DNA from: Thermoguttaceae bacterium
Lineage (GTDB): Bacteria; Planctomycetota; Planctomycetia; Pirellulales; Thermoguttaceae
Assembly (NCBI GenBank): GCA_017937685.1
Contig: JAGBDD010000170.1
Location: 1 to 33,261, forward strand
Length of the DNA: 33,261 bases
Reading direction: 5' to 3'
A program made the translations under genes and the position numbers. This document shows, one piece after another, positions 1,778 to 28,989 of the stretch (positions are counted from its first letter, which is position 1; every line of letters starts with the position of its first letter). A model generated the notes under the pieces. That model searched no databases and was not told the DNA's origin. It saw only the letters and a program-made list of their open reading frames with translations.

Positions 1778-3568
1778 TTAAAAATCGCTCGATTCTTTTT
1801 CGCTCGGTATTATTTTCTTCAAGAAACTTGACGGGGCGCGTAGTTTTCCGTTGAGAATGCGCGAATAAAGGAAAACGCACGTTTTCCGCGCTCGACTTAT
1901 CGAAACGAAACATACGCGACATTCGGCGGCAAGATCCTCCGGCGTTTTAGCGTGAAAATCGGGCAAAGAGCCCTCCTCCATATTGAGCATAATCACCGCG
2001 TCAAATTCAAGGCCTTTCGAGCTGTGGCGCGTCGTTACGACTAGGCGATCGCCGACGTCGCCCAAATTCAAGATCGACGAAAGCGGAGCGACGGAATACT
2101 CCTCGCGAATATTGTTTTCGAGCTTTTGGAGGTTTTCTCGTTCGCTTTCGTCGAAAATCTCGAAGAGCGAAAATGCCTTCTCCATATATTCGAACCAATT
2201 TAAAAGCGATTCCTTGTATCTCGCGCTTTCAATGAGACGGCGGTAAATCGACTTGCGAAGAGGCAAAAGTTCAACCTCGGAAATCGCGCCGCGTTGAGAA
2301 CAACGGAGAAACGCCGTCCAAGTCGCGCAAATTTCGTCAAACGACGCTTGAAATTTATCCAACGTCCATTGAGCGCACGATTGAAGCCAAAAGAAGAGTT
2401 CGGTACGCCGAAATTTCGGGCGCGCCAGGTAAACGGAAATCCCTCGTTGGGCGCATCGTCGACGCAGATTTCGAGCGTCTTCCTGGTATTTCGTTAAGAC
2501 GGCGATTTTTCCGAGCGAAACGCCTTCGTTGCGGAAGCGTTCGACGAAATCTAGCGCCGCGTCGTACTGCGTTTCCATACCTCCGGCGCATTCGAGAGTT
2601 ATGAATTCTGCTTCGAGTTCTTTGGCGGCGCCGACGGCTGCGTATCGCGAACGCTGCGTCGCGTTTGTGGACGATAAAACGCGCTCGCTCGCGTCGATAA
2701 TCGCTTGCGGACTACGGTAATTCTTAGTTAAGCGGAAAGTTTCGACGCCGGGAAGTCGAGCGAGTTCGTTTAAGTACTCCGGCGACGCGCCTTGGAAACC
2801 GTAAATCGATTGATCCGGGTCGCCGACAGCAAAAATCTTTACGTTGGTTCGCGTAAGAAGCGTTAATATAATTTCGTGCGAAACGAGTCCAAAATCTTGG
2901 TATTCGTCAACAAGGATCCAAGGGAACTTTGCTTCGACCGCGCGGCGAACGTATTCCTCCTCGCGAAGTAAAACCGCCGAGTATTTTAAGAGATGAAGGA
3001 AGTCGAGATAAGAACGATTATGTAAAAACTTTGCAAACTCCACCGTCGCTTCGTGAAGCAACAAATTCTTGGAAACCTTTAAATCTACGCAACTTATACG
3101 GTTTTTAAAGAGATTAACGCGTTCAGCGTCAACGCTCTTGCGATTAAAACAAGCGAAACGTTGATTTTCCCGGATAAAATCATTAAAAAGACAATCAAGT
3201 TTCTTTTCGGAAATAACGTCTAACGCTTGCGGAACCCCATACTTCGGATACAACGGAGCGAACGGCGCGAGTATTTCCGCCCAGCAAAAGGAGTGAAACG
3301 TGCCTAAGAAAATATTCTTACGTTTCTTGCAGCCTAAGTCGCGTAGACGATTCTTAAATTCGCGCGCCGCTTCAACGTTGTACGTCAAACACGCCAACCC
3401 TCGACGCGGATTGGACGTTTCGCTCAAAATTTGCGCGACTTTCGACGTTAAAACGCGCGTTTTGCCACTGCCGGGACCCGCGAGCACGACGGCGGAACCT
3501 TGCGCGGCCAACGCGCGACGTTGGTCTTCGTCGAGCGAAATGGAAACGATGGAGCGACGTTCGGTCAA
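1778..3568 (-). CDS. gajB: Gabija GajB-like UvrD/Rep-family helicase
   Basis: This 596-residue superfamily 1A DNA helicase has all its motifs: Q-motif-like SLDEDQRRAL, Walker A GPGSGKT (31-37), TYNVEAAREF (Ia), GTFHSF, Walker B VDEYQDF, GDPDQSIYGFQGA (III), NYRSPQAI (IV), TRHSSKGLEFD (V) and SISRAR (VI). It is therefore probably an active ATPase. In Gabija, GajB works with the GajA nuclease against phage DNA, and an OLD-TOPRIM gene followed by a UvrD-like gene is the defining arrangement. The start is a TTG overlapping the upstream gajA stop (TTGA, 3565-3568), which points to coupled translation; a GAGG Shine-Dalgarno lies just upstream. At 596 residues it is somewhat longer than the ~500 usual for GajB. 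Without gajA it could pass for a generic UvrD helicase. Confidence 0.87.
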   Translation of the reverse strand: MTERRSIVSISLDEDQRRALAAQGSAVVLAGPGSGKTRVLTSKVAQILSETSNPRRGLACLTYNVEAAREFKNRLRDLGCKKRKNIFLGTFHSFCWAEILAPFAPLYPKYGVPQALDVISEKKLDCLFNDFIRENQRFACFNRKSVDAERVNLFKNRISCVDLKVSKNLLLHEATVEFAKFLHNRSYLDFLHLLKYSAVLLREEEYVRRAVEAKFPWILVDEYQDFGLVSHEIILTLLTRTNVKIFAVGDPDQSIYGFQGASPEYLNELARLPGVETFRLTKNYRSPQAIIDASERVLSSTNATQRSRYAAVGAAKELEAEFITLECAGGMETQYDAALDFVERFRNEGVSLGKIAVLTKYQEDARNLRRRCAQRGISVYLARPKFRRTELFFWLQSCAQWTLDKFQASFDEICATWTAFLRCSQRGAISEVELLPLRKSIYRRLIESARYKESLLNWFEYMEKAFSLFEIFDESERENLQKLENNIREEYSVAPLSSILNLGDVGDRLVVTTRHSSKGLEFDAVIMLNMEEGSLPDFHAKTPEDLAAECRVCFVSISRARKTCVFLYSRILNGKLRAPSSFLKKIIPSEKESSDF

Positions 3569-5505
3569 CGTTGAACCTCGACTTTCGTTTTAGCGACTTT
3601 AGCTTTAATTTGCAGGAGCGCTTGCCGGATATATTCGGGCGGCGTTAATTGGCGCGCATAGGTCGCTAAGCGTTGCGCAAACCGCCCTTTGCCAATTTCT
3701 TTAATTTTGGAAAGACAAGCCTTATATTGTCCCGAGGTTAATTCGGTAGCGAAATGTTCTTTCTGTTTCTCGCCGCCTTCGGTTAGTTCGTTGAAAACTT
3801 GAATGATCGTTTGGCGTTTTTGTTCCGCTACGTTTGCTGCGAAAATATCGGTTTCTAGCGTTGTTTCGCCAACGAAGAAGTCGTATTGGGCTAACAACGC
3901 GCGTTGTTTGCTGGTTGAAATTGAAAACGTATAAGCTTCCCATTCTTCGTCTTGAAAAGAGGACTCGCATAACTTGAACGCGCGAATAAGACCGAGAAAC
4001 GCTTGCGGAAAACCCGGATCGGGATTGCCGTCGGTAATCGCGACGCAAGGAAGGCCCAACGCTTGCGCAAAACGCCAATAAGGCTTGAAATTCGTCGACG
4101 CGATATTGCAAACGACGACGCCGAATCGATCGAGTTCGAAACCAAGGCCTTCGGCAAAACGCGGAAGCAGGTACTCCTCCGCGTAACCTTCGACAAAAAC
4201 AACGCCTTTGGCCATATAGATTTCCCCTCGGTTGACGTCGATATAACGCGCAAGATCGTCAAGTTCCCGAGGTTCAAGGTTTAAATCCGCCGTCGTTTTC
4301 ACGTCGGTTCCGCTCGACGTCTCAAGCAAGCGAACGATCGACTTAACGTCCGCGACGGCCGATATATGCGTCGAATGCGTCGTCGTAATTACCGGCGCCT
4401 TGCAGTCTTTGATGAAGTGTTTGTAAAGCAAACGTTGATAAATCGGATGCAAATGCGCTTCCGGCTCCTCGACCGCGAGAATCGTAACGCCGTTCGAGCC
4501 GAATATTTCCGACATAACGCGATATAGATCGGGATAACCGTCGCTCATTTCATCCCCTTGCAATTCGTAATCGTTTGCCGCCGTTTTTCGATAAAATCGC
4601 GTCGCCAACTCTTGGTTTTTCCGGGCGAGACGTTCGTATTTGTCGACGTCCAAAAAGGGGGGAACCGTCGAATCTTGGAGTTGCAATAGAACGAGCGCGA
4701 CGTAAAGAACGTTGTCGACGCCCAAACTTGCGTCGTAAGTTTCGCGTCCGTCGATCAACGGGCGCAACGCGTAAAGAAGTTTGCTCGCGTCGGCGTTCGT
4801 CGTTCTTAGCGACACGTCGAAACCGTTGCGATCGGAGGCGAGAATCACGTTGATTCGCTCCTTTAAACAGTTTTCTAGACTTTGAATTTGAGCGACTTGC
4901 AATACGCTTCGCCCGGTCGAATCCAATCTTTGCGCAATATCTGTTAGGGCTTCTTTACTTGGCGCGTATTTTTGTTTAAGAACTTGCGTTAACGGCGACG
5001 TTCGCGGCGAGCGCATTTCGGCCTCGACGTCGCGGATTGCTTTAATGACTTTGATATTAAGAACTTTGCGATCTTCGTAAGTAAAAGGGCGCGTTTCGTC
5101 GTCGCCTTTAAAGACGATAAAGCGGTAATCGCCGTTTTCGTCGGGATAAAAGCGATAGGTCAATTTTAGCGTTTCTTGACCGGAGTCGAGTATAACCGTC
5201 GCGTCGACCAACTGCGCCAAGAGGTCGAGATTATCCTCGTAATCGCTCAAATAAATCGAGATTTCAATTTCTTCGCCGTTTTCCATCGGCGCGTCGAGCC
5301 CGGCCCAAAAGTCGGATTCTTCGAGCGTCCGGTTTTTTTCGGAGAGCGTCGGGTCAAGGATTAACTACAACGCGCGCAATAAATTGCTCTTGCCGACGCC
5401 GTTTTCGCCGATAACGACTTGCCGCTTGTTTAAGCGAAAATCGACGGAACGAAAGTTGCGAAAGTTTTTAATTTGCACGCGACAAATATACGGTTGCGTT
5501 TTCAT
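3565..5505 (-). pseudogene. gajA: Gabija GajA-like OLD-family ATPase/TOPRIM nuclease, interrupted by an in-frame TAG
   Basis: The complete frame runs from ATG at 5505 and would encode 646 residues, but codon 47 is TAG (5365-5367). The first 46 codons carry the AAA/ABC N-terminal strand IKNFRNFRSVDF and Walker A GENGVGKS (33-40), and end at NLLRAL. Downstream, in the same frame, lie the ABC-like signature around LGVDN, Walker B AVEEPEAHLHP, H-loop TTTHSTHIS, and TOPRIM motifs FVEGYAEEYLLP and AITDG. A restart at ATG 5286 would give 573 residues without Walker A, so probably no ATPase. One base change (CAG to TAG) explains the lesion, and the rest of the gene shows no decay. It may be a recent inactivation, a readthrough site or a sequencing error. 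In Gabija, GajA is the ATP-regulated DNA-nicking subunit, followed directly by gajB as here. Confidence 0.85.
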
Positions 5506-5665: not shown

Positions 5666-6859
5666 TTAATATTCGTAATAACCGCATTGGCTTCGTATTT
5701 CCGCTTCGTATTGGGCAACGTCGTATAGTATACTGTTGCAACCTTCAAAAAAATTAATTAGGGAAAACATATGTTCGTATGCATTTTTCAGATCGATAGT
5801 AACGTTAACGATTAAATATTCCAAACTATACGACGTAGGATAGCGGAAAGCGTCGCCGTTTGGATCGATTTGCGCGACTTCGCGCAAGTTTTTTTCCACA
5901 ATTTCTAAATAACTTAAATCCTGAGAAGTATCTTGGGCGTAACGAGAAAGGAACGGTTTCACGTTTTTCCAAAGATCGCGGAATAATCGATGGCTTCCTT
6001 GCTTTGCTCGGCAACTTGCGAAATATTCCACGCGAATAGAAAAAAGTTGTTTTATCGAAAGTTCGAGAGCGTTTCTTAATAAAAAAAGAACGGGAAACAT
6101 TCTATTTTTTAATAAAATACTATTGCAACGATGGAAAAGAAAATCGGCGGCGCCAAGACAACCGGCAAGTTTAGGATAAAACCCTGGATCGCCCCAAGGT
6201 TGCCATAAATAACAATTACCCCAACCATTTTTACCAAAGACAAAGAATTGAGGAACAAGACGATCGTCAAATTTGCTTTTGGCGTCGTCCGCGCCGCAAT
6301 TTAGACATTTTTCGATTAGGGCAACCGCTTGAAACATATTTTGAACAACGCCGAAATTATTTAAAAATTTATTTCTAAATTGGTTAAGAAACGCGGCGTT
6401 GAAAGGAAACCGAAACGTATCCGATTTAGGATCGACGCTTTCAAGCGAAGTTAAAAAAGCGGCTAACCACTCTTGCTCGTCTAAAGTAAGATAAGGTTCT
6501 TGACCGGCGACATATGCGTCGAAAAGTGAAGTCAAATTATGACCGCATTCTTCAAAAATTTTTTGAACATTGCGTTTTGAGGGTTGAACTCGACAATGAA
6601 GAGCTTTTAAGCCGAGTTCTAAACTATGCCTTGTTAAGTAGATAGCGGCAAAAAACCAACAATCTTGTTTTACGTTGTCGCTTTGTTCGTTTAATATTTC
6701 TTTCAATAAGACATAACCGCAACAAGCGTAATCGAAAGCCAACGACTTATAATCTTCAAACGGCTTTTTACTCCATTGAATCGCAACCTCGTATTCCGGA
6801 TAACGTAGAGCGAGAAAAGAATGTTCTTTTTCCGGTAACAACATATTTGAGTTTCTCAT
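5666..6859 (-). CDS. Two-repeat HEPN-like protein of unknown function
   Basis: This 397-residue protein is made of two related halves. Repeat 1 (about 72-152) has LTRHSLELGLKAL, GHNLTSLF and DPKSDTFRFP. Repeat 2 (about 257-341) has LLRNALELSIKQLF, SHRLFRDLW and DPNGDAFRYP. The R-x3-E-L-x-x-K helix followed by a (G/S)H-x-L helix and a D-P-x-x-D-x-F-R-(F/Y)-P segment resembles HEPN-fold proteins common in defence loci, many of which are RNases or toxin-like. I recognise the style, not a named family. The strict R-x4-6-H catalytic spacing is not obvious, so it may be a non-catalytic sensor. The gene is clearly more AT-rich than Mod/Res. It lies 102 nt after res and 160 nt before gajA. AGGAG lies about 15 nt before the ATG, rather far. 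Confidence 0.65.
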   Translation of the reverse strand: MRNSNMLLPEKEHSFLALRYPEYEVAIQWSKKPFEDYKSLAFDYACCGYVLLKEILNEQSDNVKQDCWFFAAIYLTRHSLELGLKALHCRVQPSKRNVQKIFEECGHNLTSLFDAYVAGQEPYLTLDEQEWLAAFLTSLESVDPKSDTFRFPFNAAFLNQFRNKFLNNFGVVQNMFQAVALIEKCLNCGADDAKSKFDDRLVPQFFVFGKNGWGNCYLWQPWGDPGFYPKLAGCLGAADFLFHRCNSILLKNRMFPVLFLLRNALELSIKQLFSIRVEYFASCRAKQGSHRLFRDLWKNVKPFLSRYAQDTSQDLSYLEIVEKNLREVAQIDPNGDAFRYPTSYSLEYLIVNVTIDLKNAYEHMFSLINFFEGCNSILYDVAQYEAEIRSQCGYYEY

Positions 6860-6961: not shown

Positions 6962-9646
6962 TTACCGTTGTTCGAACTTTGCCGCCAAACCGGCGAGCGT
7001 CATATTGGGAAGCGTTTGATCGTGCGGTATTAGCAGATATTTCCAAGGTTTATCGTCGTTTTCGCTTGCAAGCCGAGCCCATTTGACGGCGGCGTCGCGC
7101 TTGGCCGTTACTTCTTTAGCGTCGAGTTCGGAAGCGCGTTTTGTTTCGCAAAGGTATTTCGCATCGGCGGTTTCGACGATAAAGTCCGGCAAGTAACGCG
7201 ACTCTTGAGCGTAAAAAATGCGAATTTCGCGCAACGTCGGTTTTAGCCATTTCAGGACGGCGGGGTCGTCCTCCAAAATGCGAGCGAATTCAAGTTCGGT
7301 TTGGGAGTCGAACTTTTGAACGTCGTAAATACATTTGCGAAAGCCGCCGAAAGCCGTCGACTTGATTCGGCTCGTTTCGCCTTTTCCTAAGGGCGCTCGA
7401 AAATTCCTTGGACGTTCGTTCGCGGCGACGGTCGAATTCTGCGGTTCAAATTTCGTAAAGCCGCCCGTTACCGTAACTTCGTATTCCGTTTTCGGTTCAT
7501 AACGCCGCTCCGACATTTGCGCGTGAATAAATTCGATCAACGTTTTACGGTGAAACTGCAACACGTTGAGAACTTCCGCTTCGTCGGCTAAGTATTCTCG
7601 CAATCGCGCGACGGCTTGGCCGGCGAGTTTTTGCAAGAGATCGGCGCAGTCGTCGTAACACACGTCGTTATAATCGATTAACCCCGCGACTAAATAATCT
7701 TCGAAACGCGTTTCGGGCGACGCGGCGTTTTTGTCGCTCAACTTGCGCGATTCCTGATCGCCGCGCAAATATTTGATTAAAATATCTTGCGCGACCGGCT
7801 GCAAATTGATTGGGGCGACGTCGAGGTCAAAATCCTCGAACGCGTAACTCGCGCCGTCTTTAGGCGTTACGACGATGCGCGGAATATCGATCGCGTTTTC
7901 CCGAATCGTTTCAAGCGTCTTTTTCACCGTCGTTTCTATTTCTGCGTCGCTCAACGATTCTCCAAGAAGCGCCGTTTGCTTTTTGACGTCGGCGACAATT
8001 TGCGGGAGAATTTTCGGCGACGTTAAATCGCGGCTCGTTTTGACTTGCCGCGCGTAAGTTGTCGCGCCGATAAGAGCGTAAGTTTGGCGAGCGACGGCGA
8101 CTTCGGCGGGCGTTTCGAACAACAAACGCGGCGGTTCGGCGGCGATTTCCGACGCGTCGGTCCGCGTCTCGGACGGCGCAAGTCCCAACAGCGTCTCAAT
8201 TTTCGGCGCGGCGACAAGAACCTTACGTTCCTCGTCCGGAATGTCGCGACCAATAACGACGCCGCGTCGAATAACCGAGTTCGGGTCGTTGGCGTAATCG
8301 ACGATTTCCTTAAAACGGTCGTGCGAAACGATGGTCAGTCGGTCGACCGCGTCGACGCCGGTTCGCCGTCCGTAAGGCAAGCGCAAACCGCGCCCGATCG
8401 ATTGTTCGACGAGCGTTTTTGAGTTCGCGGCGCGGAGCGGAACGATCGTGTAAAGGTTCGAAACGTCCCAACCTTCCTTCAACATATTGACGTGAATCAC
8501 GATTTCGGTCGGTTCGGCGGGATTCTCGACCTGCAAAAGCCGCGCGACGACTTCCTCGCGTTCGCTTCCTTTCAAATTCGAGTGAACTTGAATCGTTTTG
8601 CCGCGATAACGTCCGTTGAAAAAGTCGTCCGATTCGATTTTCGCCTGCAGCTCGTTCGCGTGTTCGACGTCGGCGGCGACGACCAGCATAAACGGCTTGA
8701 CGCGTCGCTCGTTTCGCTCGAGAGCGTAAGTTTGGAGATCGATTTTAACGTTTTCGTGAACGCGGACGCCGTCCTCCAACTTGATTTTTTCCAACTCTTG
8801 CGGCGAATAAGCGCTCGGATCGAAGTTTTCGCGCGTCGCGACGGCGGGCTCCTTCACGAACCCGTCTTCGATAGCGGTCGCCAACGGGTATTCGTAAACG
8901 ACGTTTTTAAACGGAATCGACTTCGAACCTTTTTCAACTTGCGGCGTCGCGGTCAGTTCGAGACCAAGGAGCGGACGGAGTTCTTCGATCGCTTGGACGC
9001 CCGCCGACGCGCGGTAGTGGTGCGACTCGTCCATCAACACGACCAAGTCGTCCAACTTGGCGAGATATTCGCTATAACTTTCCCCGATATATTCGCTCAA
9101 CCGTTTGAAACGCGGGACTTTCGTTTGCGAATCCTTGTCGCCGTTGATTTTCGAGATATTGAAAACGTTGATAAAGCAAGCGTCGTTAAAAAGCCGTTCC
9201 TTGGCGCCGCGACCGTCGTCGTAGTTGTCGCCGGTAACGAGGACGGGATTCTCCGCGCCGAACTCGCCGATTCCGCGAAAAACGTACTTCGGCGTTCCCG
9301 GCGTGAAGTCGGCGCTCAACTTTTCGTAAACCGTTAAGTTCGGCGCGATAACGAAGAAATGGCGGCTGATTCCGGCTTGGTAAAGGAACGCGATAAAGGC
9401 GCCCATTAGCCGCGTTTTCCCGACGCCGGTCGCCAACGCGAAACAGAGCGAAGGAAAAGCGCGTTCGAAACTCTCGACCGCCGGAAATTCGCGCCGGAGG
9501 GTTTCGAGGTTTTGCGCGACGTCGGCATCTTTCGACAAGTTAAGCGTTTCGCAAACTCGCTTGAGAATTTCCAACGCTTCCCGTTGCGGCGAGCGGAGAC
9601 TCAACCGGGCGCTAATCGTTTTAATAAGTCGCTCGAAATCGTTCAT
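6962..9646 (-). CDS. res: Type III restriction enzyme, Res subunit (helicase/endonuclease)
   Basis: This 894-residue SF2 translocase-endonuclease of type III R-M (EcoP15I Res-like) shows Walker A ATGVGKT (72-78), DESH box (206-209), LTATPQ (231-236), HVNMLKEGWDVSNL and QSIGRGLRLPYG (motif VI, about 415-427). Near the C-terminus a PD-(D/E)xK nuclease is visible: LPDFIVE followed by CETKRA, both strands of the catalytic core. It follows Mod with 1 nt between stop and start, so translation is coupled. Res needs Mod for target recognition and cuts DNA after ATP-driven communication between two sites. Length and motifs are complete, so it is probably functional. Confidence 0.95.
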   Translation of the reverse strand: MNDFERLIKTISARLSLRSPQREALEILKRVCETLNLSKDADVAQNLETLRREFPAVESFERAFPSLCFALATGVGKTRLMGAFIAFLYQAGISRHFFVIAPNLTVYEKLSADFTPGTPKYVFRGIGEFGAENPVLVTGDNYDDGRGAKERLFNDACFINVFNISKINGDKDSQTKVPRFKRLSEYIGESYSEYLAKLDDLVVLMDESHHYRASAGVQAIEELRPLLGLELTATPQVEKGSKSIPFKNVVYEYPLATAIEDGFVKEPAVATRENFDPSAYSPQELEKIKLEDGVRVHENVKIDLQTYALERNERRVKPFMLVVAADVEHANELQAKIESDDFFNGRYRGKTIQVHSNLKGSEREEVVARLLQVENPAEPTEIVIHVNMLKEGWDVSNLYTIVPLRAANSKTLVEQSIGRGLRLPYGRRTGVDAVDRLTIVSHDRFKEIVDYANDPNSVIRRGVVIGRDIPDEERKVLVAAPKIETLLGLAPSETRTDASEIAAEPPRLLFETPAEVAVARQTYALIGATTYARQVKTSRDLTSPKILPQIVADVKKQTALLGESLSDAEIETTVKKTLETIRENAIDIPRIVVTPKDGASYAFEDFDLDVAPINLQPVAQDILIKYLRGDQESRKLSDKNAASPETRFEDYLVAGLIDYNDVCYDDCADLLQKLAGQAVARLREYLADEAEVLNVLQFHRKTLIEFIHAQMSERRYEPKTEYEVTVTGGFTKFEPQNSTVAANERPRNFRAPLGKGETSRIKSTAFGGFRKCIYDVQKFDSQTELEFARILEDDPAVLKWLKPTLREIRIFYAQESRYLPDFIVETADAKYLCETKRASELDAKEVTAKRDAAVKWARLASENDDKPWKYLLIPHDQTLPNMTLAGLAAKFEQR

Positions 9647-9647
9647 C

Positions 9648-11345
9648 TTACGCGTCTCCGTTCTCGTCCGTTCCGTCGACGGCGAACAGCGTCGGTTGGT
9701 TGGCGTTCGTCTTTTTGCGTCCTCTTTTCGCCGTTGTTTTCTTGGGCGGCGCCGGTTCCTCTTGCGCGAGCGGGAGGTTTTCGACGGCCAGCGAGTAATC
9801 GTCGCGTCCCCATTCGCATTTTTTGAGGAGCGTTTGCGGAATCTTTTTGACCGTGAGGTTGTCGAACTCGTCGCCGGTTCCGAGGAACGCGGAACAGTAA
9901 ATCGCGAGGGTGCGGTTCGGCCCGACGTCGTCGGAAATCTTGGCGAGGTAATCGAGCGTCAGACTTTGCGTGGTAACGTAAATGAAGTCGGTTTCGGAAC
10001 TTTGCCCGTGCCGCCAATACTCCTCCGGGTTCTCGCTCGGCGCGTAGGTAAAACCTTCGATTTTGCAAACGGCTTCGGCGAGCGCTTCGGGGTTGAACTT
10101 CTCCTTATCGATGATCGGTCTTCCCCATTTGTCGAGGGCGATCAAGGACGGCCCGAGTTTGAAATATCGGAACCCGCCGCCCCCTTTCCAACCGACCGCT
10201 TTCGTGATTCCGCCTTGGTCGGTTCCGTCGACGACGCTCCGCAAGCGCGGAATGCAGTGCGTGTGGCAATGTTCGCCGAGTTCGATTCCGATCCAGCGCC
10301 GCCCCATTTTGTGCGCGACCGCCGCCGTCGTCCCGCTGCCTAAAAAGGAGTCTAGAACGAGATCGCCGGGTTGGGTCGCCAACGTTAAAATTCGTTCGAT
10401 AAGACGTTCCGGTTTGGGCGTCGCGAAAACGCTCTCGGAATTAAACGCTTTCACTTCGCGTTTTGCGTCTTGGTTGTCGCCGACGTCGGCGCGGAACCAA
10501 ATAGTTTTAGAAACCGTGCCGCCTTTAACTTCGGAAAGAAAGCGTTTGATACGCGGCACGTTATTTCCGTCTTTGCCAAACGTGATACGGTTGTCCGCGA
10601 CCATCTCCTCGAATTTTTCTTTCGAAACGCGCCAACAAGACCCGGCGGGGGGATTGATAATACGACCGCTTGGCGTTTGAATTGGGTAGTCGGCGGACGC
10701 GGAATAGGATTTCACGGAAAGATTATCCGACATCCAAGGTCCGCGCGGATCGTTATCCTTGTTCGTGTAGCGACTATTCATTTCTTCTGTTCTCGGTAAC
10801 AGATTAGGTCGCCAAGCCGTTTTGTTTTTAGCGTAAACTAAAATGAAATCGTGGCTGTCCGAAAGCCAGGTCGCGTCGTTTTGGGGCGCATACTTTTTTT
10901 CCCAAATAACGGTGGCGACAAAATTAGCGCGCCCGAATATTTCGTCGCACATCACTTTCAAATACGCTTGTTCGTCGTCGTCGATAGAAATCCAAATCGA
11001 CCCGTCGTTGGCCAACAAGCGATAAAGCAGTTCGAGGCGTTCTCGCAAAAGCCCGAGCCAAATAGAATGTTCGAGTCCGTCGTTGTACTGCTCGAACGCG
11101 TTGCCGGTGTTATACGGCGGGTCGATGTAAACGCATTTCACCTTGCCGGTAAACTCTTGTTCTAGCGCCTTTAACGCCAAGAGGTTGTCTCCGAAGATCA
11201 GGCGATTGTCGAAAATATCGGCGTCGCTCGTTCGCGTCGGCGCGCAATACGACTTTTCCGCGTCTTCGATAAGAATACGCGGCTCGAGCTTCGGGCGGAC
11301 GTCCTTGCCAATCCAGGTAAGCTCCAATTTTTGTTTCTTCGACAT
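9648..11345 (-). CDS. mod: Type III DNA adenine-N6 methyltransferase, Mod subunit
   Basis: This 565-residue site-specific methyltransferase has the beta-group order: catalytic IDPPYNTGN (DPPY at 75-78) first, AdoMet motif DSFLGSGTTAAV near residue 340. The middle part, between about residue 130 and 300, is where type III Mod proteins carry the target-recognition domain, so the site specificity cannot be read from sequence. The C-terminus is Lys/Pro-rich. Mod both methylates one strand of its asymmetric site and gives Res its specificity. It begins 23 nt after the RloC-like gene and ends 1 nt before res. AAAGG lies about 10 nt before the ATG. Confidence 0.96.
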   Translation of the reverse strand: MSKKQKLELTWIGKDVRPKLEPRILIEDAEKSYCAPTRTSDADIFDNRLIFGDNLLALKALEQEFTGKVKCVYIDPPYNTGNAFEQYNDGLEHSIWLGLLRERLELLYRLLANDGSIWISIDDDEQAYLKVMCDEIFGRANFVATVIWEKKYAPQNDATWLSDSHDFILVYAKNKTAWRPNLLPRTEEMNSRYTNKDNDPRGPWMSDNLSVKSYSASADYPIQTPSGRIINPPAGSCWRVSKEKFEEMVADNRITFGKDGNNVPRIKRFLSEVKGGTVSKTIWFRADVGDNQDAKREVKAFNSESVFATPKPERLIERILTLATQPGDLVLDSFLGSGTTAAVAHKMGRRWIGIELGEHCHTHCIPRLRSVVDGTDQGGITKAVGWKGGGGFRYFKLGPSLIALDKWGRPIIDKEKFNPEALAEAVCKIEGFTYAPSENPEEYWRHGQSSETDFIYVTTQSLTLDYLAKISDDVGPNRTLAIYCSAFLGTGDEFDNLTVKKIPQTLLKKCEWGRDDYSLAVENLPLAQEEPAPPKKTTAKRGRKKTNANQPTLFAVDGTDENGDA

Positions 11346-11368
11346 TGCGGTTTCGCCTTTTATTTAAT

Positions 11369-13675
11369 TTACAACGGTTCTTTCGGTCGATAGCCGACAA
11401 AGTTTAAAACGCGTTTCACCAGACCGCGAAGTTCGCCGGCGTTGACGTTATCGGTAAAATCAATGTGGAAGTGGTGGAATGGGTTTGTATCGTCTCGAAG
11501 AATATCAAGTTCATCGAGTTTTTCAAGTTCATCGAGTTGATCTACGCCAATACGAATTTGCGACGTTCCTGTTTCTTGACGTTTCCGCTCCGTGTTAAGA
11601 AAATGATGTAACGACTCATTTTGCGGAAATTCCGGTTGAAAAGCAACGCGACAATATCCCTCCAAAGTATGACGCAACACGGCGCCGACTAGAATAACGT
11701 CGCCTTCGTTTTTTTCGTAAAAGTTACGTAATATCTCAATATATCGGTCGTAATCGTTCTTCTCCCATTCCTTCTTACTTTCGATTTGCAATATATTTTG
11801 AGAACCAAATCGCGAAAGCCCCAAACAGACAATTTCTTTGTTTTTGAGTTTCCCGCACATTTCTTTCAAAAAACGTTTTGAATGCGACGCGACGATAAGT
11901 TGGCGGCATTGGCTTTGCAGTCGGGCGATATGCTCCGCCGTCGCGCTCCTGCGATGTTCGTCCAAGCTCGTAAACGGGTCGTCGAAAACGACGATCGCGT
12001 TTTCCAAATTCGGATTGTTTTCCAACGACGCGAAAAAATACGCCAACGCCAACGTTCGGCGGTCGCCCGCGCTCAACACGTACTTGAATTCGTTTTCCAA
12101 CTTTTTCGTTTTTACGTTGTTTATCGTCAATTTATACTCGACGCTTAAGCCGGAATACCCGAGTTTATTTTGGCGAAAGTCGGCGACGGTAAAGTCGGCG
12201 CGCAACTTGCCGAGATAACGGTTCGTCGCGTCGAGGTAATCGCGAAAAACGGTCGCCTCGCAACGTTTAAGTTCGGCTTCCTCTTCTTTGATCGACGTTT
12301 GGAGTTCGTCGAGTTCGTTTCGAAGCGTATGTATTTTATAATAGACTTCCTGTACGTTGCGGTCGAGGTAGCGCGTCCGCGTCAATTCCAACGTTTGCTT
12401 TCGTTTCAGCAGTTCCGACTTGCTTACGCGGGCGACGCGCTCTTGAACGCGCCGAATCGTTGCGTTCGCGTCGAGAAAATCTTGATACGCGTTCAAAAAC
12501 GAAGCGCGCGCTTCGGCGTAAAGTTCGAGCGCCGCCGTCAACTCGTCCGGAAGCGCGAGCGGTTCCAGCGGCAAACTTTTTTTGTCTTGCGCGACCGCTT
12601 GGAAACGCTTGCCCAACGCGGCGACCGTTTCGAGAATCGACTTAAAATCGGGCGATTCCGGCAAGTCGGGGACGTATTGTCGCCAGTAATCGCGTTTTGG
12701 CGGCAAACTCGATTTTAAGGTGTTTAATCGACTCCAAACGTCGCGCAACTCGGCAAGCGTCGCGTCAAGGTCGCTTCGTAACTCCGTGACGAAACGCTTA
12801 TACTCGTCGTTAAAATATTGCCGATAAACGGTTAGAAGTCGGTCGTCGCGGATTTTTTGGCCGCAGAACGGACAAACGTCGTCGGACGAAGCGAGCGCAA
12901 GTCCCGTTGCCGCCCAGTTTTCGCCGTCGGCGCCTAACGAAGCGAAGTGAGCGCGCGCCCGGTTTAGCGTTGTTTCTTCGACGTCGCTTAACGACCGCTC
13001 GAGTAACGCCGAAACTTGCGTCGAGTCGAACGCGGGAAGGGAAAACGGCTCGAAAGCCGCCGCGTTTTTAATCGTTTCGGCTTGCTCCGCTTGCTTGATT
13101 TCCGCGTCGACTTCGGCGATTTTCTCGTCGAGGGCTTCTTGCCAAGGCAACGCGTCGAATTGGTCGACCGTCAGCGGCCCGGCGTATTTTTGAAGCTCGG
13201 CGTTTTGCCATTTCGGAAGTTCTCTTTGCAATTCGCCGCGGCGCCGTTTTAAAGCGCCCAGTCGTTGAATACGTTCGACGCTCTCCGCGCCCAAAACGAT
13301 TTGGCAGAGGTTGTCGCGTTGCTCTTTCTCGACGCTAAGGCCCGAATAGACGTTTTCGTCGACGTAAAAATCGTTAAAAACGACGACCGGCGCCGCGAAC
13401 GCCGAACGTTCCCAACGCCCGTTTTGAAAACGCAATTCTTCTTCGTCGATTTCGAGGCAGATTTCTAACGGCGACGGCGTCGGCGTCGCGCTTTTCCGCC
13501 GTCGCGCCAAAATCTCGTCGGAATCGTCGCGAGCGAAGGAGCGCAAAACTTGCGACAACGTCGTTTTTCCCGCCGCGTTTTCGCCGTAAATAAGCGTCGT
13601 TTGCTTTAATTCTTCGTCGCAAGTTAATTGATTAAAGCAACCGACGTTGCGAATAAGTTTAATTTTCGTCAGCAT
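11369..13675 (-). CDS. AAA_13-family zinc-hook ATPase, RloC/PrrC-like
   Basis: This 768-residue SMC/Rad50-like ATPase is of the AAA_13 type that includes the anticodon nucleases PrrC and RloC. It has Walker A GENAAGKT (31-38), a CPFCGQ zinc-hook-like pair (C268, C271) inside long charged helices (about 130-480), signature YVLSAGDRRTLALAYF (532-547), Walker B VVFDDP with D-loop SLDEH (562-574) and H-loop VASHS (595-599). The C-terminal 110 residues hold LRHTLEGY (R668, E672), HH at 690-691 and NPFHHFHIDF. An Arg-x3-Glu followed by distant His resembles the catalytic triad of PrrC-type nucleases, but the spacing differs, so nuclease activity is inference. Such proteins are often linked to R-M systems as a second, abortive line of defence. 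Start is adjacent to the SNF2 stop. Confidence 0.85.
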   Translation of the reverse strand: MLTKIKLIRNVGCFNQLTCDEELKQTTLIYGENAAGKTTLSQVLRSFARDDSDEILARRRKSATPTPSPLEICLEIDEEELRFQNGRWERSAFAAPVVVFNDFYVDENVYSGLSVEKEQRDNLCQIVLGAESVERIQRLGALKRRRGELQRELPKWQNAELQKYAGPLTVDQFDALPWQEALDEKIAEVDAEIKQAEQAETIKNAAAFEPFSLPAFDSTQVSALLERSLSDVEETTLNRARAHFASLGADGENWAATGLALASSDDVCPFCGQKIRDDRLLTVYRQYFNDEYKRFVTELRSDLDATLAELRDVWSRLNTLKSSLPPKRDYWRQYVPDLPESPDFKSILETVAALGKRFQAVAQDKKSLPLEPLALPDELTAALELYAEARASFLNAYQDFLDANATIRRVQERVARVSKSELLKRKQTLELTRTRYLDRNVQEVYYKIHTLRNELDELQTSIKEEEAELKRCEATVFRDYLDATNRYLGKLRADFTVADFRQNKLGYSGLSVEYKLTINNVKTKKLENEFKYVLSAGDRRTLALAYFFASLENNPNLENAIVVFDDPFTSLDEHRRSATAEHIARLQSQCRQLIVASHSKRFLKEMCGKLKNKEIVCLGLSRFGSQNILQIESKKEWEKNDYDRYIEILRNFYEKNEGDVILVGAVLRHTLEGYCRVAFQPEFPQNESLHHFLNTERKRQETGTSQIRIGVDQLDELEKLDELDILRDDTNPFHHFHIDFTDNVNAGELRGLVKRVLNFVGYRPKEPL

Positions 13676-16543
13676 TTAAACAACGCTCCACCGAATCGTA
13701 AAGAGGCGTTTTTCCTCGATTTTTTCTTTCGTTTGCTCTTCGAGTCGCTCGATCAACTCGTCCCGCTTTTGTTCGACGGCGTCTTGCGCGGCGAAGAGAT
13801 CGCGGCGCTTTTGGTTGCGGCGGCGTTCGAGTTCGCGAACCTGCTTTTGAACGGCGATCTTTTCTTGCAAACCGCGCGTCGCCGTCGCTTCGCGGCGTTT
13901 TTCGGCGATCAATTTATCTAACTCTTTTAATTCTTGCTCTAACGAAAGTTTTAAGTCGTCGCTCCAACGGTCGAGTTTGGACGATTCCTCTTCTAAGAAA
14001 CGGAGATTGCGCTCGCCGACTCCCTCGACGCGACGAGCGATTTCGGCTTGGCGGATCTCGCTCAAATCGGCGGGAGGTTCCGCGTCGAGTTGCGCGTCTT
14101 GCGTCGCGGGAAGCCAAAAGAGCTTTTGGCAAATTTCGTCGTCCAACGTTTGACCGTCGTCCGTTCGCGCGGCGAAAATAAGAAATTCGTCTTTTGAGAC
14201 GGAACGAATCGTCAACAACGACGCCTCCAACCAACCGGAGCGTCCGCGAAACGGTTCGATAAGACTTAACTTCGCCCGATAATTCGAAAGCGAGAAAGTC
14301 AACGAGGCGAGCGGCAACTTACGTTCAAGCGCCGAAGCGATGAGTTTTCGCGCCAACGAACAGTCGCTCCGATAGAAGAACTCGTTATTTTCGTCCGCTT
14401 TCTTCCAGTCGAAGTCGTACCAACCGCGAGGCGCGTCGGAGCCAAGATACTCAAAGCGCGGAAGATCGGGATCAAATCGCGCGTCGTCGCCAAGTTCCGC
14501 TTTCGTCAAATTTAAGAGCGTCTTTTCTTGCCGCGAAAGGCAGTCGTTCGTCTTCTCTTGACTGAGTCGCAACCGCAAGCGCACTTCTTCGTCGAAGTTT
14601 TCCATTAACTGTCGACGCGTCGACTTTAAGCGCGCTTGAATTTTGTCGTCGAGTTCCTTTTGGAGTTCGTCGAAAGCCCGTTCGATTTCTTCCGGCGCGC
14701 GACAGTTTTGGTAAACGAAGGCGATGCGCTTTTCAATATCGACGCCCGATTCGAGCGCGCCGAGAATCTCGTCGGAAGCGCCTAAAACGCCGTCGAACAA
14801 GCGGAATTTTTGACTCAATAGTTCGTAAACGCGTCGATCTGCTTCGTTGCGACGATTGATAAAGTTGACGACGACCACGTCGTGTTTTTGACCGTATCGA
14901 TGGCAACGTCCGATTCGTTGTTCGATGCGTTGCGGATTCCAAGGCAAGTCGTAATTAACGATCAAACTGCAAAATTGCAAGTTGACGCCTTCGGCCGCCG
15001 CTTCCGTCGCGACTAAAATAGTCGCCGATTCGCGAAAATAATCGACGAGAGCCGCTTTCATATCGACGGCTTTCGAACCGGCGACGCGATCGTCGTCGGC
15101 GTGTTTTTCGAGCCAGCGTTCGTAAATCTTTTGTTGACCGGGCGCGTCGTTCGAACCGCTAATCGAGACGACTTGACCGTCGTAACCGTTGGCCGAAAGG
15201 AGTTTAACAAGGTAGTTTTGAGTTTGGCGCGATTCGGTGAAGATTACCGCTTTACGCGCCGCTCCAATTTCGTCCGTTTTGTTGAAAGCCGTTTGCAACG
15301 CTTCAATGAGCGCGTCGCCTTTTGCGTTGCGCGCGACGCTTGCCGCAAGTTCGGCGAAACTTTGAAGATCGTTTAATTCTTGTTTAAACGCTTCGGGATC
15401 GTATTGCGCGTTTAATTTCCCGGCGTTCGATTCGTCGTCGGCGCCAAATTCGTCCTCAAACGAATCGAACCCGTCGAGGTCTTCGTCGTCGAAAAGTTGT
15501 AATTCGCGCCCGACGTTCTCTAAACGTTCCGCTAGATTTTTTAACGTTCGCGCGATCGCAAAAGTCGACGACGCAAGCAACTTGCGAAGAACGATCGTGA
15601 TGAGTTGACGTTGACTCGCCGGAAGCGCGTAGAGAGTTTCTCGCTGTAAATATTCGGTGATCTTGTCGTATAACTCTTGTTCCTTTTCCGTGGGGAAGAA
15701 GTCTTGCGTGATCGGCGCGCGCCTAGTAAAAGGAACGTATTCCGCGACTTGCTTTCTCAACGTTCGCGAACAAACGCCGGCAATACGCTCTTTAAGGAGA
15801 ACGTTGCGCCGCGTTTCGTCTTGCGCGTTGGCAAATTGCGCGCGAAACGAATTGAGATCGCCGAAAATATGAGGGTCGACGACGCTAATTAAACTGTAAA
15901 GTTCCAACAACGAGTTTTGCAACGGCGTCGCCGTGAGAAGCAATTTGGGAGCCGCGCTCGTCGCCTCGACAATGCGACGCGCGATCGATTTTTTCGCGGA
16001 CGCCGATTTTTTGCTACGCTCGAAACTTTGATAGAGGTTGCGTAGGCGATGCGCTTCGTCGAAAACGACTAAATCCCAAGGAATTTGGGCAATTTCCGCT
16101 TCCTTGGCGGCGGCGAAATTATACGAACAGACGGCGACTTCGTCGCGCAAATCGAAGGGATTCAACGCGCCGTCTTTTTTTAACCGGTTGAAAACTTTAG
16201 AGTCTAAAATTACGGAAGAGATGAAAAATTTATCGAGCAATTCTTGACGCCATTGATTCCGTAACATAGCGGGCACGACAATTAAAACGCGACGTTTGCG
16301 TTCGGCCCATTTTTGCGTGATTACGAGTCCCGCTTCGATCGTTTTACCGAGTCCGACCTCGTCCGCAAGAATAACGCCGTTGGCGAACGGACTACGCAAC
16401 GAGAAGAGCGCGGCGTCGACTTGGTGCGGATTAAGATCGACGCGAGCGTTCGAAATGGAACGAGACAAAGCCGAGACGTCGCCGCCCGAACCGCGAAGAT
16501 AAAGTTGATACGCCCAAATTTGAGATTGGTAATAAGCGTTCAT
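13676..16543 (-). CDS. SNF2-family helicase/translocase of a defence operon
   Basis: This 955-residue SF2 ATPase of the SNF2/RapA type has Walker A ADEVGLGKT (60-68), DEAH box (162-165), LLTATPLQN, then the C-terminal helicase lobe with VIFTESRQTQ, VATEAAAEGVNLQ and QRIGRCHRYGQ. The N-terminus has the PHQVDAALFSLRSP type of start seen in defence SNF2 proteins such as DISARM DrmD. The last ~100 residues are a highly charged coiled coil. It is first in the operon, directly followed by the zinc-hook ATPase (stop and start abut at 13675/13676). Likely role: ATP-driven translocation or remodelling on DNA in support of the type III R-M pair. The start at ATG 16543 has only a poor Shine-Dalgarno. 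Confidence 0.92.
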   Translation of the reverse strand: MNAYYQSQIWAYQLYLRGSGGDVSALSRSISNARVDLNPHQVDAALFSLRSPFANGVILADEVGLGKTIEAGLVITQKWAERKRRVLIVVPAMLRNQWRQELLDKFFISSVILDSKVFNRLKKDGALNPFDLRDEVAVCSYNFAAAKEAEIAQIPWDLVVFDEAHRLRNLYQSFERSKKSASAKKSIARRIVEATSAAPKLLLTATPLQNSLLELYSLISVVDPHIFGDLNSFRAQFANAQDETRRNVLLKERIAGVCSRTLRKQVAEYVPFTRRAPITQDFFPTEKEQELYDKITEYLQRETLYALPASQRQLITIVLRKLLASSTFAIARTLKNLAERLENVGRELQLFDDEDLDGFDSFEDEFGADDESNAGKLNAQYDPEAFKQELNDLQSFAELAASVARNAKGDALIEALQTAFNKTDEIGAARKAVIFTESRQTQNYLVKLLSANGYDGQVVSISGSNDAPGQQKIYERWLEKHADDDRVAGSKAVDMKAALVDYFRESATILVATEAAAEGVNLQFCSLIVNYDLPWNPQRIEQRIGRCHRYGQKHDVVVVNFINRRNEADRRVYELLSQKFRLFDGVLGASDEILGALESGVDIEKRIAFVYQNCRAPEEIERAFDELQKELDDKIQARLKSTRRQLMENFDEEVRLRLRLSQEKTNDCLSRQEKTLLNLTKAELGDDARFDPDLPRFEYLGSDAPRGWYDFDWKKADENNEFFYRSDCSLARKLIASALERKLPLASLTFSLSNYRAKLSLIEPFRGRSGWLEASLLTIRSVSKDEFLIFAARTDDGQTLDDEICQKLFWLPATQDAQLDAEPPADLSEIRQAEIARRVEGVGERNLRFLEEESSKLDRWSDDLKLSLEQELKELDKLIAEKRREATATRGLQEKIAVQKQVRELERRRNQKRRDLFAAQDAVEQKRDELIERLEEQTKEKIEEKRLFTIRWSVV

Positions 16544-25798: not shown

Positions 25799-26956
25799 TT
25801 AAAGCGTTTCGGTTTCGCCTTTGTTCGGAGTCGCCATCGCGCCCCAAACGCCGTGCCAAGATTTGCCGGTCCACTTGTTGTCTTGGCCTTCCGCGTTCGC
25901 CGCGCCGCCCATAATTTCGGTGATGTTGCCGCAGTCGACCGTTTCGCTAACGAAGCGGACGGAACCGTCGCACATCACGACGTTGACGCCGCCGCTGTGG
26001 TTCGACGAAGCCGAAATGCAGCCGTAGTCGGACGATTCGCCGCCGCCGGAACCGCAGCAGCTCGGGGAGTTCGGCGGAAGCGCCGCTTGGAATTGCGTGC
26101 AGGCGCTGCGCGCGTCGATCCAACGACGCCCCTTGATCGTGTAAACGGTCGTGCCTTCGGTGATTTGGCCGTTTTCGCCGCGGAACGCCAAGCAGGCCGA
26201 CGACGGTTTCGATTTCGCGCCGGTCAGGTACGCGACCGCCGATTTGATACTGCGGTCGTTATCGACTTCGGTAACGTTGATTTCGCTGAACGCCATCGTG
26301 TTGCTAAGACCGTCGGTGATCGTCGCGAACGTCGTGTTCGGGCAGTAGTAGCCGCTCATAAAAACGCCGCGACGGTTTTGGTTCCCGGACGAGTCGTTCG
26401 ACATAATCGCGTCGCCGTTGTTCGTGGCGTAGCTGCAGCGACCGATGTGGTTGTCTTGGCCCTTCGAGCCGACGGCGCGACCTTCCGACGGGCAGAGGAA
26501 TGCGTCGATGGCGGCGGTCGCCGGGTTTTCGGTCATATCGGTCGGGATATTGCTCCCGTCGGTCGGGCTGAACGAGTACGCGCTGTTGCCGGTCGACTGC
26601 GCTTTTTTGAGCGCGGCGGTCATCGTGTCGAAGAGCGCGGTTTGTTCGATGTACGGGAGGAGCAACGCTTGCGCGGAGTAGCGTTGGAGGCGGCTTAAGG
26701 TCGCTTCGTGATAAAAGCCGTCTTCCCAAAACTTGTCGCGGAATTGGTTCGGGAGGCGGTTGTGCGCGTCGTGGAAGTTTTGGATCGCGAGGCCGAGTTG
26801 CTTCATATTGTTGGTGCATTGCATACGTCGGGCCGCTTCGCGCGCCGCTTGGACGGCGGGGAGGAGCAACCCGATGAGAATGCCGATGATCGCGATGACG
26901 ACCAACAATTCGACGAGGGTGAAGCCGCGGCGCGACTTCGAGGAGGCGAACGTCAT
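25799..26956 (-). CDS. DUF1559 prepilin-type protein, paralog 1
   Basis: This 385-residue protein has a type IV prepilin-like N-terminus, [20 protein letters not shown], with the cleavage site after Gly and one hydrophobic helix, then the [20 protein letters not shown] block typical of DUF1559 (SBP_bac_10). Near the end is the H-X9-DG motif: [17 protein letters not shown]. It is probably processed by a prepilin peptidase and displayed at the cell surface; the biological role of this large planctomycete family is unknown. It is less similar to the next two paralogs than they are to each other. TAAAGGAAA before the ATG is a common ribosome-binding site of all three. Confidence 0.95.
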
Positions 26957-27165
26957 TGATGTTTCCTTTAAGGCGGTTGAAACGATAAAATGGAAAATAT
27001 CGACGCGTCAAACAAAAGAACGCGCCCAACGACAGGTTGCAAAGGAAACGGTCAACGGGACCCCGTTCCGCGTCGGACGGAAACGCTTTCGAAGAAAAAA
27101 ACGATCGAAGCGGTTAACATACAAGCGCAAAACCGAAGAGACGGCAAAAACGAGTCGTTCACGCA

Positions 27166-27194
27166 ATTATACCGAAGAGCGGCGATTCTGTCAA
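27166..27194 (-). promoter_or_regulatory. Sigma70-type promoter of DUF1559 paralog 1
   Basis: On the minus strand TTGACA (27194-27189), 17 bp, TATAAT (27171-27166): perfect consensus at both boxes. The leader would be about 204 nt. The 401-bp gap 26957-27357 holds this promoter and the terminator of the next paralog. Confidence 0.85.
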
Positions 27195-27270
27195 CGCCGA
27201 GTCGAACGGGCGCGGCGAAAACGTCCCCTAAAAACGCGAAATTAACCGTTTTTTTCGGAACGAAACGCAA

Positions 27271-27317
27271 AACCGCCGCCGACGTTCGAGCGGAAACCCC
27301 GAAACGTCGACGGCGGT
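27271..27317 (-). terminator. Terminator of DUF1559 paralog 2
   Basis: Minus-strand stem: ACCGCCG-T-CGACGTT (27317-27303) with AACGTCGGCGGCGGTT (27286-27271), about 14 pairs with one imperfection, followed by a short T run. It lies 41 nt after the stop. Confidence 0.65.
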
Positions 27318-27357
27318 CGAGAAAACGACTTAAACGTCGCAAGTTAACGAACGGCGA

Positions 27358-28548
27358 TTAGAGCGATTCGGTTTCGCCCTTGCCCGGGGTCGCCATCGCG
27401 CCCCAGACGCCGTGTCCGGATTTGCCGGCCCAGGTGTAGTCGCAACCGTCGGTATTCGCCGCGCCGCCCATAATGTTGGTAATGTCGCCGCAGTCGACCG
27501 TTTCGCTAACGAAGCGGACGGAGCCGTCGCACATGACGACGTTGACGCCGCCGCTGTGGTTGCTCGACGGAGTGGAAATCGTGAAGTCGTCTTTCGACCC
27601 GCCGCCGGAGCCGCAGCAGCTCGGCGCGTTCGGCGGAAGCGCCGCGGTGAAGTTCGAGCAGGCGCTGCGAGCGTCGCAGAAACGACGGCCCTTGATCGGG
27701 TAAGTCGTGTCGACGTTCGTCATGCCGCCTTCGCCGCGCGTCGCCAAGCAGGCCGCCGGAGCTTTCGACTTCAAGCTGGTGAGGTAAGCGACGATATTCT
27801 TCGACATCACGCCGCCGTTTTGGTCGGAGACGGTCGTTTCGCTGAACGCCATCGTGTTGCTCGTGCCGTCGGTGATCGACGCGAGAACGGTTTGGCCGCC
27901 TTTATCCGGGGCGCCGTTGACGAAGACGCCGCGACGGTATTGGTTGCCGCGCCCGGACGTGTTTTGGTACGCCGCGTCGCCGACGTTGCAGAGGTAGCTC
28001 GTGCGGCCCATATGGCCTTCTTCGCCTTTCGAACCGGCGGCCAACCCGTCGGACGGGCAGAGGAGCGGGTCGATCTTCGCGGTCAGCGGGTTGCGCGTCG
28101 CGCCGGTCGGAACCGTTCCGCCGTCGGTCGGGCTCGGCATATAGTTCGCGTCGCCGGTCGACTTCGCTTTTTCGCAGAGACCGGTGATTTCGGAGTAAAG
28201 CGCGGTTTGTTCGACGTAGGGAAGCAAGAGCATTTGCGTCGTGTAACGTTGCGGACGGCTGCAGATCGACGCGGTGTTGGTGTAAATGTCGGCGGTTCCG
28301 TTCGGGACGAAGCTCATCCAGATTTTGTCGTTGTATTGGTTCGGAATCCGGTTGTGCGCGTCGGCGAAGTTGTGGAGCGCGAGCCCCAGTTGCTTCATAT
28401 TGTTGGTGCATTGCATACGACGGGCCGCTTCGCGCGCCGCTTGGACGGCGGGGAGAAGCAAACCGATGAGAATACCGATGATCGCGATAACGACCAGCAG
28501 TTCGACGAGGGTGAAACCGCGGCGCGACTTCAAAAACGGGGTGGTCAT
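27358..28548 (-). CDS. DUF1559 prepilin-type protein, paralog 2
   Basis: This 396-residue protein has the same plan as paralog 1: [20 protein letters not shown] at the N-terminus, [20 protein letters not shown], and [20 protein letters not shown] at the end. Many blocks are identical to paralog 3 (for example [20 protein letters not shown]), so these two come from a recent duplication. Eight or more Cys residues, including CSRPQRY and SCCGSGGG, suggest disulfides outside the cytoplasm. It has its own promoter and terminator, so it is not co-transcribed with its neighbours. Confidence 0.95.
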
Positions 28549-28785
28549 GTCGTGTTCCTTTATGACGCAATGTAGTGATTAAAAGTAGTTCGCCGCTTAG
28601 TCGACGTCGGCAAAACCGATAATGTCGACAAAACGTAACGAACTTCGTTCGCAAAACAAATAAAACGACAAAGCGAACGATCGAAAAACGAGCAACGGGA
28701 ACACGTTTCAAGACGTTGGCGACGCGCCGCGATAAACGACAAGCTCGGCGCGAAAATTAGGATAAGATAAAGTCGTTTGTCGACA

Positions 28786-28813
28786 ATTATACGGGAAAAT
28801 GAAATATTGTCAA
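28786..28813 (-). promoter_or_regulatory. Sigma70-type promoter of DUF1559 paralog 2
   Basis: On the minus strand TTGACA (28813-28808), 16 bp, TATAAT (28791-28786): perfect boxes. The leader would be ~230 nt. The 441-bp gap 28549-28989 holds this and the hairpin at 28890. Confidence 0.85.
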
Positions 28814-28889
28814 GAGGCGCGACCGCTTTGTTTCGGAATTTAGACGCTTCGAAAGGAGAATATTATTAAAGTTAGCGTCGTCGAACTGT

Positions 28890-28917
28890 GTCGGAACCGT
28901 CGCGAAACGGCTCCGAC
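28890..28917 (-). terminator. Hairpin after DUF1559 paralog 3
   Basis: GTCGGAACCGT (28890-28900) pairs with ACGGCTCCGAC (28907-28917), one mismatch in 11 bp, loop 6 nt. There is no T tract on the minus strand, so it may be a factor-dependent or weak terminator; it lies ~73 nt after the stop. Confidence 0.45.
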
Positions 28918-28989
28918 GCGAGGAGCGGCGCGGCTCGAACCCGGAGAAGCGTCCGAGTTCGAGTTCGCTAACTAACAAGAAGGGGGGGA

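Follow-up and report, generated by a model that had tools for sequence, protein, structure and literature searches.

An ABC-type ATPase gene lodged inside a type III restriction-modification (R-M) operon of a Thermoguttaceae bacterium raises two questions: whether its product is an RNA-cutting effector, and whether that effector is held in check by the R-M enzymes encoded around it. The window analysed here, the whole stretch of 33,261 nucleotides, comes from a genome that shares its genus with Thermoguttaceae gut MAGs. The operon comprises four genes, all on the minus strand, in this order:

13676..16543, minus strand: DrmD_b-like SNF2 helicase, first operon gene, its stop codon abutting the AAA_13 start (TAA-ATG)
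11369..13675, minus strand: AAA_13 ABC ATPase with a C-terminal HEPN-like domain, 768 aa (open reading frame, profile matches and model)
9648..11345, minus strand: type III Mod methyltransferase (PADLOC MTase_III, E 2.7e-211)
6962..9646, minus strand: type III Res (PADLOC REase_III, E 1.3e-221)

Mod and Res both match type III models. The helicase scores 680.7 bits against the NCBIfam DrmD_b model (NF038318), below its cut-off of 950 bits, and is therefore termed DrmD-like only. The AAA_13 stop lies 23 nt from the Mod start, and the coordinates leave 1 nt between Mod and Res; because of the zero-gap junction with DrmD and the short distance to Mod, the AAA_13 gene is probably co-expressed with the operon. 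Res is followed by a 397-aa ORF (5666-6859, minus strand) that has no Pfam or PADLOC match and in which two segments, YLTRHSLELGLKAL and LLRNALELSIKQL, resemble HEPN helices by eye. A Gabija GajA/GajB pair (1778-5286, minus strand) lies further downstream; the GajA ORF as called aligns with its best PADLOC model from position 70 only, and its N-terminus, with the Walker A motif, seems to be missing or miscalled. Elsewhere in the window, three tandem ORFs (25799-30162, minus strand) have near-identical prepilin-like N-termini, which are frequent in planctomycetes.

The AAA_13 reading frame, running from 13675 to 11369, is real, and the zinc hook and complete ATPase motifs noted in the preliminary description are all present:

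13562..13585, minus strand: Walker A GENAAGKT, residues 31-38 (K37 in 43 of 43 proteins)
12857..12874, minus strand: zinc-hook CPFCGQ, residues 268-273 (both Cys in 43 of 43)
12062..12076, minus strand: ABC signature LSAGD, residues 534-538 (S535 and G537 invariant in a 25-sequence alignment)
11975..11998, minus strand: Walker B AIVVFDDP, residues 560-567 (D565, D566 and P567 invariant in the same alignment)
11882..11884, minus strand: H-loop H598 (invariant in the same alignment)

The D-loop reads SLDE. The protein matches Pfam AAA_13 (E 4.3e-48) and, over residues 1-760, the PADLOC model PDLC04895 of the candidate system PDC-S06 (E 4.9e-79); the PADLOC PrrC model matches its ATPase part only (E 7.7e-10). 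A sequence search of the PDB returned weak matches, to ABC transporter ATPases only. No match was found in phage genome records, and an initial viral scan, whose query was an alignment of three rows, gave none either. Modelled at full length (pLDDT 80.6), the protein shows a head of the Rad50/SMC/RecF type, with Z values of 17-20.

The residues that could make this protein a nuclease lie in its C-terminal region:

11672..11674, minus strand: R668, presumed catalytic (43 of 43)
11660..11662, minus strand: E672, presumed catalytic (42 of 43, with one Asp)
11648..11650, minus strand: R676, completing E-x3-[KR] (R in most clade members, otherwise K, H or W)
11471..11473, minus strand: H735, presumed catalytic (43 of 43)

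These counts refer to a set of 43 diverse AAA_13 proteins. The 25-sequence alignment, which took in distant planctomycete and viral-contig relatives, has a mean column identity of 27% and only nine invariant columns: seven lie in the ATPase core, and R668 and H735 make up the rest; E672 is nearly invariant. The R668-x3-E672 pair of the preliminary description thus stands, as more than a coincidence. The histidines that it had listed, 690, 691, 734, 735 and 737, are likewise all present, but H735 is the only conserved one: two orthologs, 81-82% identical, keep R668, E672, R676 and H735, and do not keep H690, H691, H734 or H737. H690 and H691 were dropped as catalytic candidates since they are unconserved. 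The residue preceding the presumed catalytic His is His or Lys in the window protein and its orthologs. The Glu-to-His gap, 62 residues in the window protein and 53 and 56 in its orthologs, is unusual because the whole clade has a longer gap (50-62) and because the window protein carries a few extra residues, LDELEKLDEL, that are missing from the orthologs. In Geobacillus kaustophilus RloC, changing R692, E696 or H737 abolishes activity (PMC2610378), and judging by sequence the conserved Arg, Glu and His of the AAA_13 protein appear to match this triad.

The modelled fold of this region agrees with such a role. It forms a separate domain:

11396..11776, minus strand: HEPN-like helical domain, residues 634-760 (separate fold; top VIA-align matches HEPN)

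Folded alone, residues 626-768 give a helical bundle with pLDDT 84.1 and pTM 0.79. Foldseek with this domain alone gave a best E of 0.24 and nothing significant in the PDB or among viral models. When the Foldseek candidates were realigned, HEPN proteins made up most of the top 28 rows, led by 2hsb (Z 8.2, rmsd 3.5, 114 residues aligned) and including the HEPN domain of sacsin (Z 7.9), a HepT toxin (7.7) and Csm6 (7.6), values near 8 being modest for a helical bundle. PrrC and RloC structures do not figure in the fold-match lists, but this absence does not indicate a different fold. RloC and PrrC nucleases have themselves been assigned to the HEPN superfamily (PMC3710099), and this placement, together with the consistent match list and the triad, makes a HEPN-type fold likely.

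The effector domain also appears to have a history different from that of the rest of the protein:

11450..11863, minus strand: segment of apparently different ancestry, residues 605-742 (third-position identity and likelihood scan)

Third-position identity between the window gene and its orthologs is 54% within residues 603-743 and 83% outside (P 1e-11), whereas no comparable drop separates the two orthologs from each other. In a likelihood scan the best edges fall at 605 and 742 (score 24.3; the highest of 100 permutations scored 10.7). The segment starts just past the H-loop and spans the effector domain. The most economical interpretation is that residues 605-742 have been replaced by a divergent allele that kept the catalytic residues; alternatively, the rate of change may have shifted strongly in this stretch. 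A smaller third-position dip is seen at residues 420-460, in the coiled coil.

Phylogeny places the protein beside RloC. The published RloC motif is R-x3-E-x36-52-H, with Ser often preceding the His (PMC2610378). A tree of the 43 proteins separates 15 that have SH, with a gap of 37-51, from 28 that have HH, KH or YH, with a gap of 50-62 (support 100/99), and the window protein falls in this second, 'HH' group; RloC is represented in this comparison by the SH proteins from viral contigs, not by characterised RloC or PrrC sequences. The new subtype that had been suspected from the His spacing is thus borne out as a distinct clade. It defines a broad sister group of RloC-type ABC-HEPN proteins, whose members come from plasmids, from contigs of phage origin and from planctomycete chromosomes; a literature search found no report of a tested member.

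The position of the gene within the operon is a variable one. A DrmD-like helicase was found at E < 1e-100 in 43 of 392 sampled Planctomycetota genomes, the survey using longest-ORF gene calls only. In DrmD/Mod/Res loci the gap between DrmD and Mod is empty in two cases (L117, L118) and is elsewhere occupied by Gabija (L113), SIR2-HerA (L035, L114), YhcG with AIPR/AbiU (L033) or with an OLD-type ATPase (L126), Lamassu-B-like ATPases (L112, L119), or Schlafen with YhcG (L128), usually co-directional and with small gaps. As a variable defence-module slot, this position corresponds to 11345-13676 of the window and to loci L033, L035 and L112-L130. A distant planctomycete of another family (L042) has a degraded DrmD/AAA_13/Mod/YhcG/Res locus with an AAA_13 remnant in the slot; its DrmD lacks approximately residues 230-827 and its AAA_13 is reduced to the C-terminal part. 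In one further genome a DrmD/Mod/Res operon is closely followed by another AAA_13-like ATPase, larger and of a different kind (L124:9440-12079). Nothing was found in the literature on the DrmD-like/type III/DUF1016 arrangement or on cargo nested in R-M operons, and the slot offers a place to seek new defence modules. It is conceivable, though we consider it improbable, that DrmD-like, Mod and Res form a platform with a plug-in second-line slot, in which DrmD and the type III complex would detect incoming foreign DNA and activate the module that occupies the slot: an ABC-HEPN RNase here, and Gabija, SIR2-HerA, YhcG-AIPR, a Lamassu-like ATPase or Schlafen elsewhere.

Members of the 'HH' clade also occur in other surroundings. 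They are found in type I operons, as HsdM-HsdS-AAA_13-HsdR (L046) and M-S-R-AAA_13 (L100), after a type III Res (L047), in a methylase-PaeR7I-AAA_13 array (L099), convergent with a BsuBI/PstI pair (L098), and alone near resolvases and plasmid genes. Two of the genes (L047, L051) lie beside genes that by eye resemble P2-type phage tail genes, the former also beside the type III Res.

Three relatives of the same genus (L001, L002 and L003) retain the AAA_13 gene, that of L003 ending at a contig edge after 248 residues. The three have no Mod match at E < 1e-60 and no DrmD match at E < 1e-100, and Res is absent from their AAA_13 loci. What remains is a fossil of the helicase gene:

13676..13751, minus strand: DrmD 3' end with the conserved LFTIRW motif, surviving as a fossil in L001, L002 and L003

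The remains of the DrmD C-terminus stand directly before the AAA_13 start; in L001, for example, they read KEKIEEKHFFTIRRSVV-stop where the window has KEKIEEKRLFTIRWSVV-stop, and the LFTIRW motif that they carry is seen in most DrmD relatives. In L001 the DNA similarity runs beyond the AAA_13 stop into approximately the first 111 nt of Mod, and sequence from upstream of DrmD is also found in L001 and L002. Since DrmD fossils precede the AAA_13 gene in all three, and a Mod fossil follows it in L001, the relatives descend from the same operon and have lost the rest of it; they are incomplete MAGs, and the fossil evidence is independent of completeness. An ancestrally standalone AAA_13 gene around which the operon was assembled was rejected, given the in-frame DrmD remains and, in L001, the trace of the start of Mod beyond the AAA_13 stop. 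As L001 and L002 share the arrangement, the differences between them arose after the loss. Their AAA_13 dN/dS is 0.30 (bootstrap 0.21-0.42), close to that of a neighbouring cysteine desulfurase gene, 0.22; AAA_13 stayed under purifying selection following the loss of R-M.

These observations bear on the suggestion that the protein guards the type III pair. In a guard of the PrrC type, the Mod/Res complex would bind and silence the protein, and a phage anti-restriction factor would release it to cut tRNA. The prrC gene of EcoprrI lies between hsdS and hsdR. An equivalent place is taken by the gene in L046, and the tight junctions with DrmD and Mod in the window would also suit such a guard. Survival without R-M, however, would not be expected of a gene that needs R-M for its silencing. 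The three relatives, with purifying selection between L001 and L002, speak against it, as does a Paracoccus plasmid (L102:7090-7908) in which a type III Res is truncated to its last third and an intact 'HH' AAA_13 gene persists approximately 90 nt after it; furthermore, members of the clade have type I, type II or type III systems, unrelated in composition, as neighbours, or stand alone. The variable slot, the orthologs that outlive DrmD and Mod and the varied contexts of the clade make a PrrC-like dependence on R-M silencing unlikely. What stands of the suggestion is that the gene lies inside the operon, and the protein may sense R-M failure. The fossil operons serve as a natural experiment: they ask whether a nuclease of this kind depends on its R-M partner, and the answer that they suggest is no.

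We favour the view that the AAA_13 protein is probably a self-gated, RloC-related ABC-HEPN abortive-infection RNase, carried as exchangeable cargo of the DrmD-like/type III R-M operon. RloC is an anticodon nuclease that cuts tRNA in the anticodon loop and removes the wobble nucleotide. By analogy with it, two Rad50/RecF-like heads, with coiled coils and a zinc hook joining them, would keep the HEPN domain inactive. The heads would read a DNA-derived signal, a break or a restriction failure, and release the HEPN domain, whereupon R668, E672 and H735 would cleave RNA, tRNA being the likeliest substrate, so that translation would stop and the infected cell shut down. Gating would thus lie with the protein's own ATPase and hook and not with the R-M enzymes. 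The RNase activity, the RNA target, the trigger and the control by ATP and zinc are what we infer from this likeness. An RNase of the HEPN type directed at mRNA, rRNA or phage RNA, and not at anticodons, is possible, if somewhat doubtful. RNAs of many kinds serve as substrates of HEPN domains (PMC3710099), tested RloC and the 'HH' clade are unlike at the residue before the His and in the inter-helix stretch, where specificity could lie, and the domain looks exchanged between alleles; yet the Arg-Glu-His arrangement and the ATPase/hook architecture equal those of tested tRNA cutters. The least probable is a non-catalytic DNA repair or sensing ATPase like Rad50 or RecN, with a C-terminal bundle that simply binds RNA or protein. 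The head does resemble Rad50, SMC and RecF, and certain HEPN domains are non-catalytic (PMC3710099), but exactly the three putative catalytic residues are invariant in a domain that otherwise changes fast.

Among known systems, the Rad50/SbcC and RecF proteins share the head fold, and Rad50/SbcC also the hook, but these have no HEPN domain, and no Mre11/SbcD-like gene occurs among the annotated neighbours of the AAA_13 gene. The PADLOC candidate PDC-S06 is matched over the full length; it is a candidate defence model for which a literature search gave no tested mechanism. With PrrC of the E. coli EcoprrI system the protein shares an ABC ATPase, an R-x3-E...H nuclease and linkage to R-M. PrrC, however, is hookless and approximately half as long (341-416 aa, against 768 aa with a hook here), and is silenced by a type I R-M enzyme, whereas the AAA_13 gene survives in relatives that have lost R-M. 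With the HEPN superfamily the C-terminal model shares the four- to five-helix fold and E-x3-[KR], as E672-x3-R676. The canonical Rx4-6H is not found, there being no conserved Arg 4-6 residues ahead of H735; the presumed catalytic Arg, R668, instead sits on the E helix, as in PrrC and RloC.

The closest likeness is to RloC of G. kaustophilus (PMC2610378), in which a coiled coil bearing a CxxC zinc hook divides the ABC ATPase, and a C-terminal R-x3-E and a conserved His follow (here R668, E672 and H735); the length of the protein lies inside the RloC range of 658-897 aa. This domain plan, with its Arg-Glu-His set, had been proposed from the outset and is upheld by the motif conservation and by the HEPN-type fold (PMC3710099). 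The differences are HH, KH or YH in place of SH, a Glu-to-His gap of 62 here and 50-62 in the clade against the published 36-52, a clade separate from the SH proteins, and a place in a type III operon. Because its His spacing lies outside the published range, we do not file the protein as RloC proper. We conclude from sequence and model that it is most likely RloC-like in its parts, its fold and its probable action, with the tree placing it in a sister clade.
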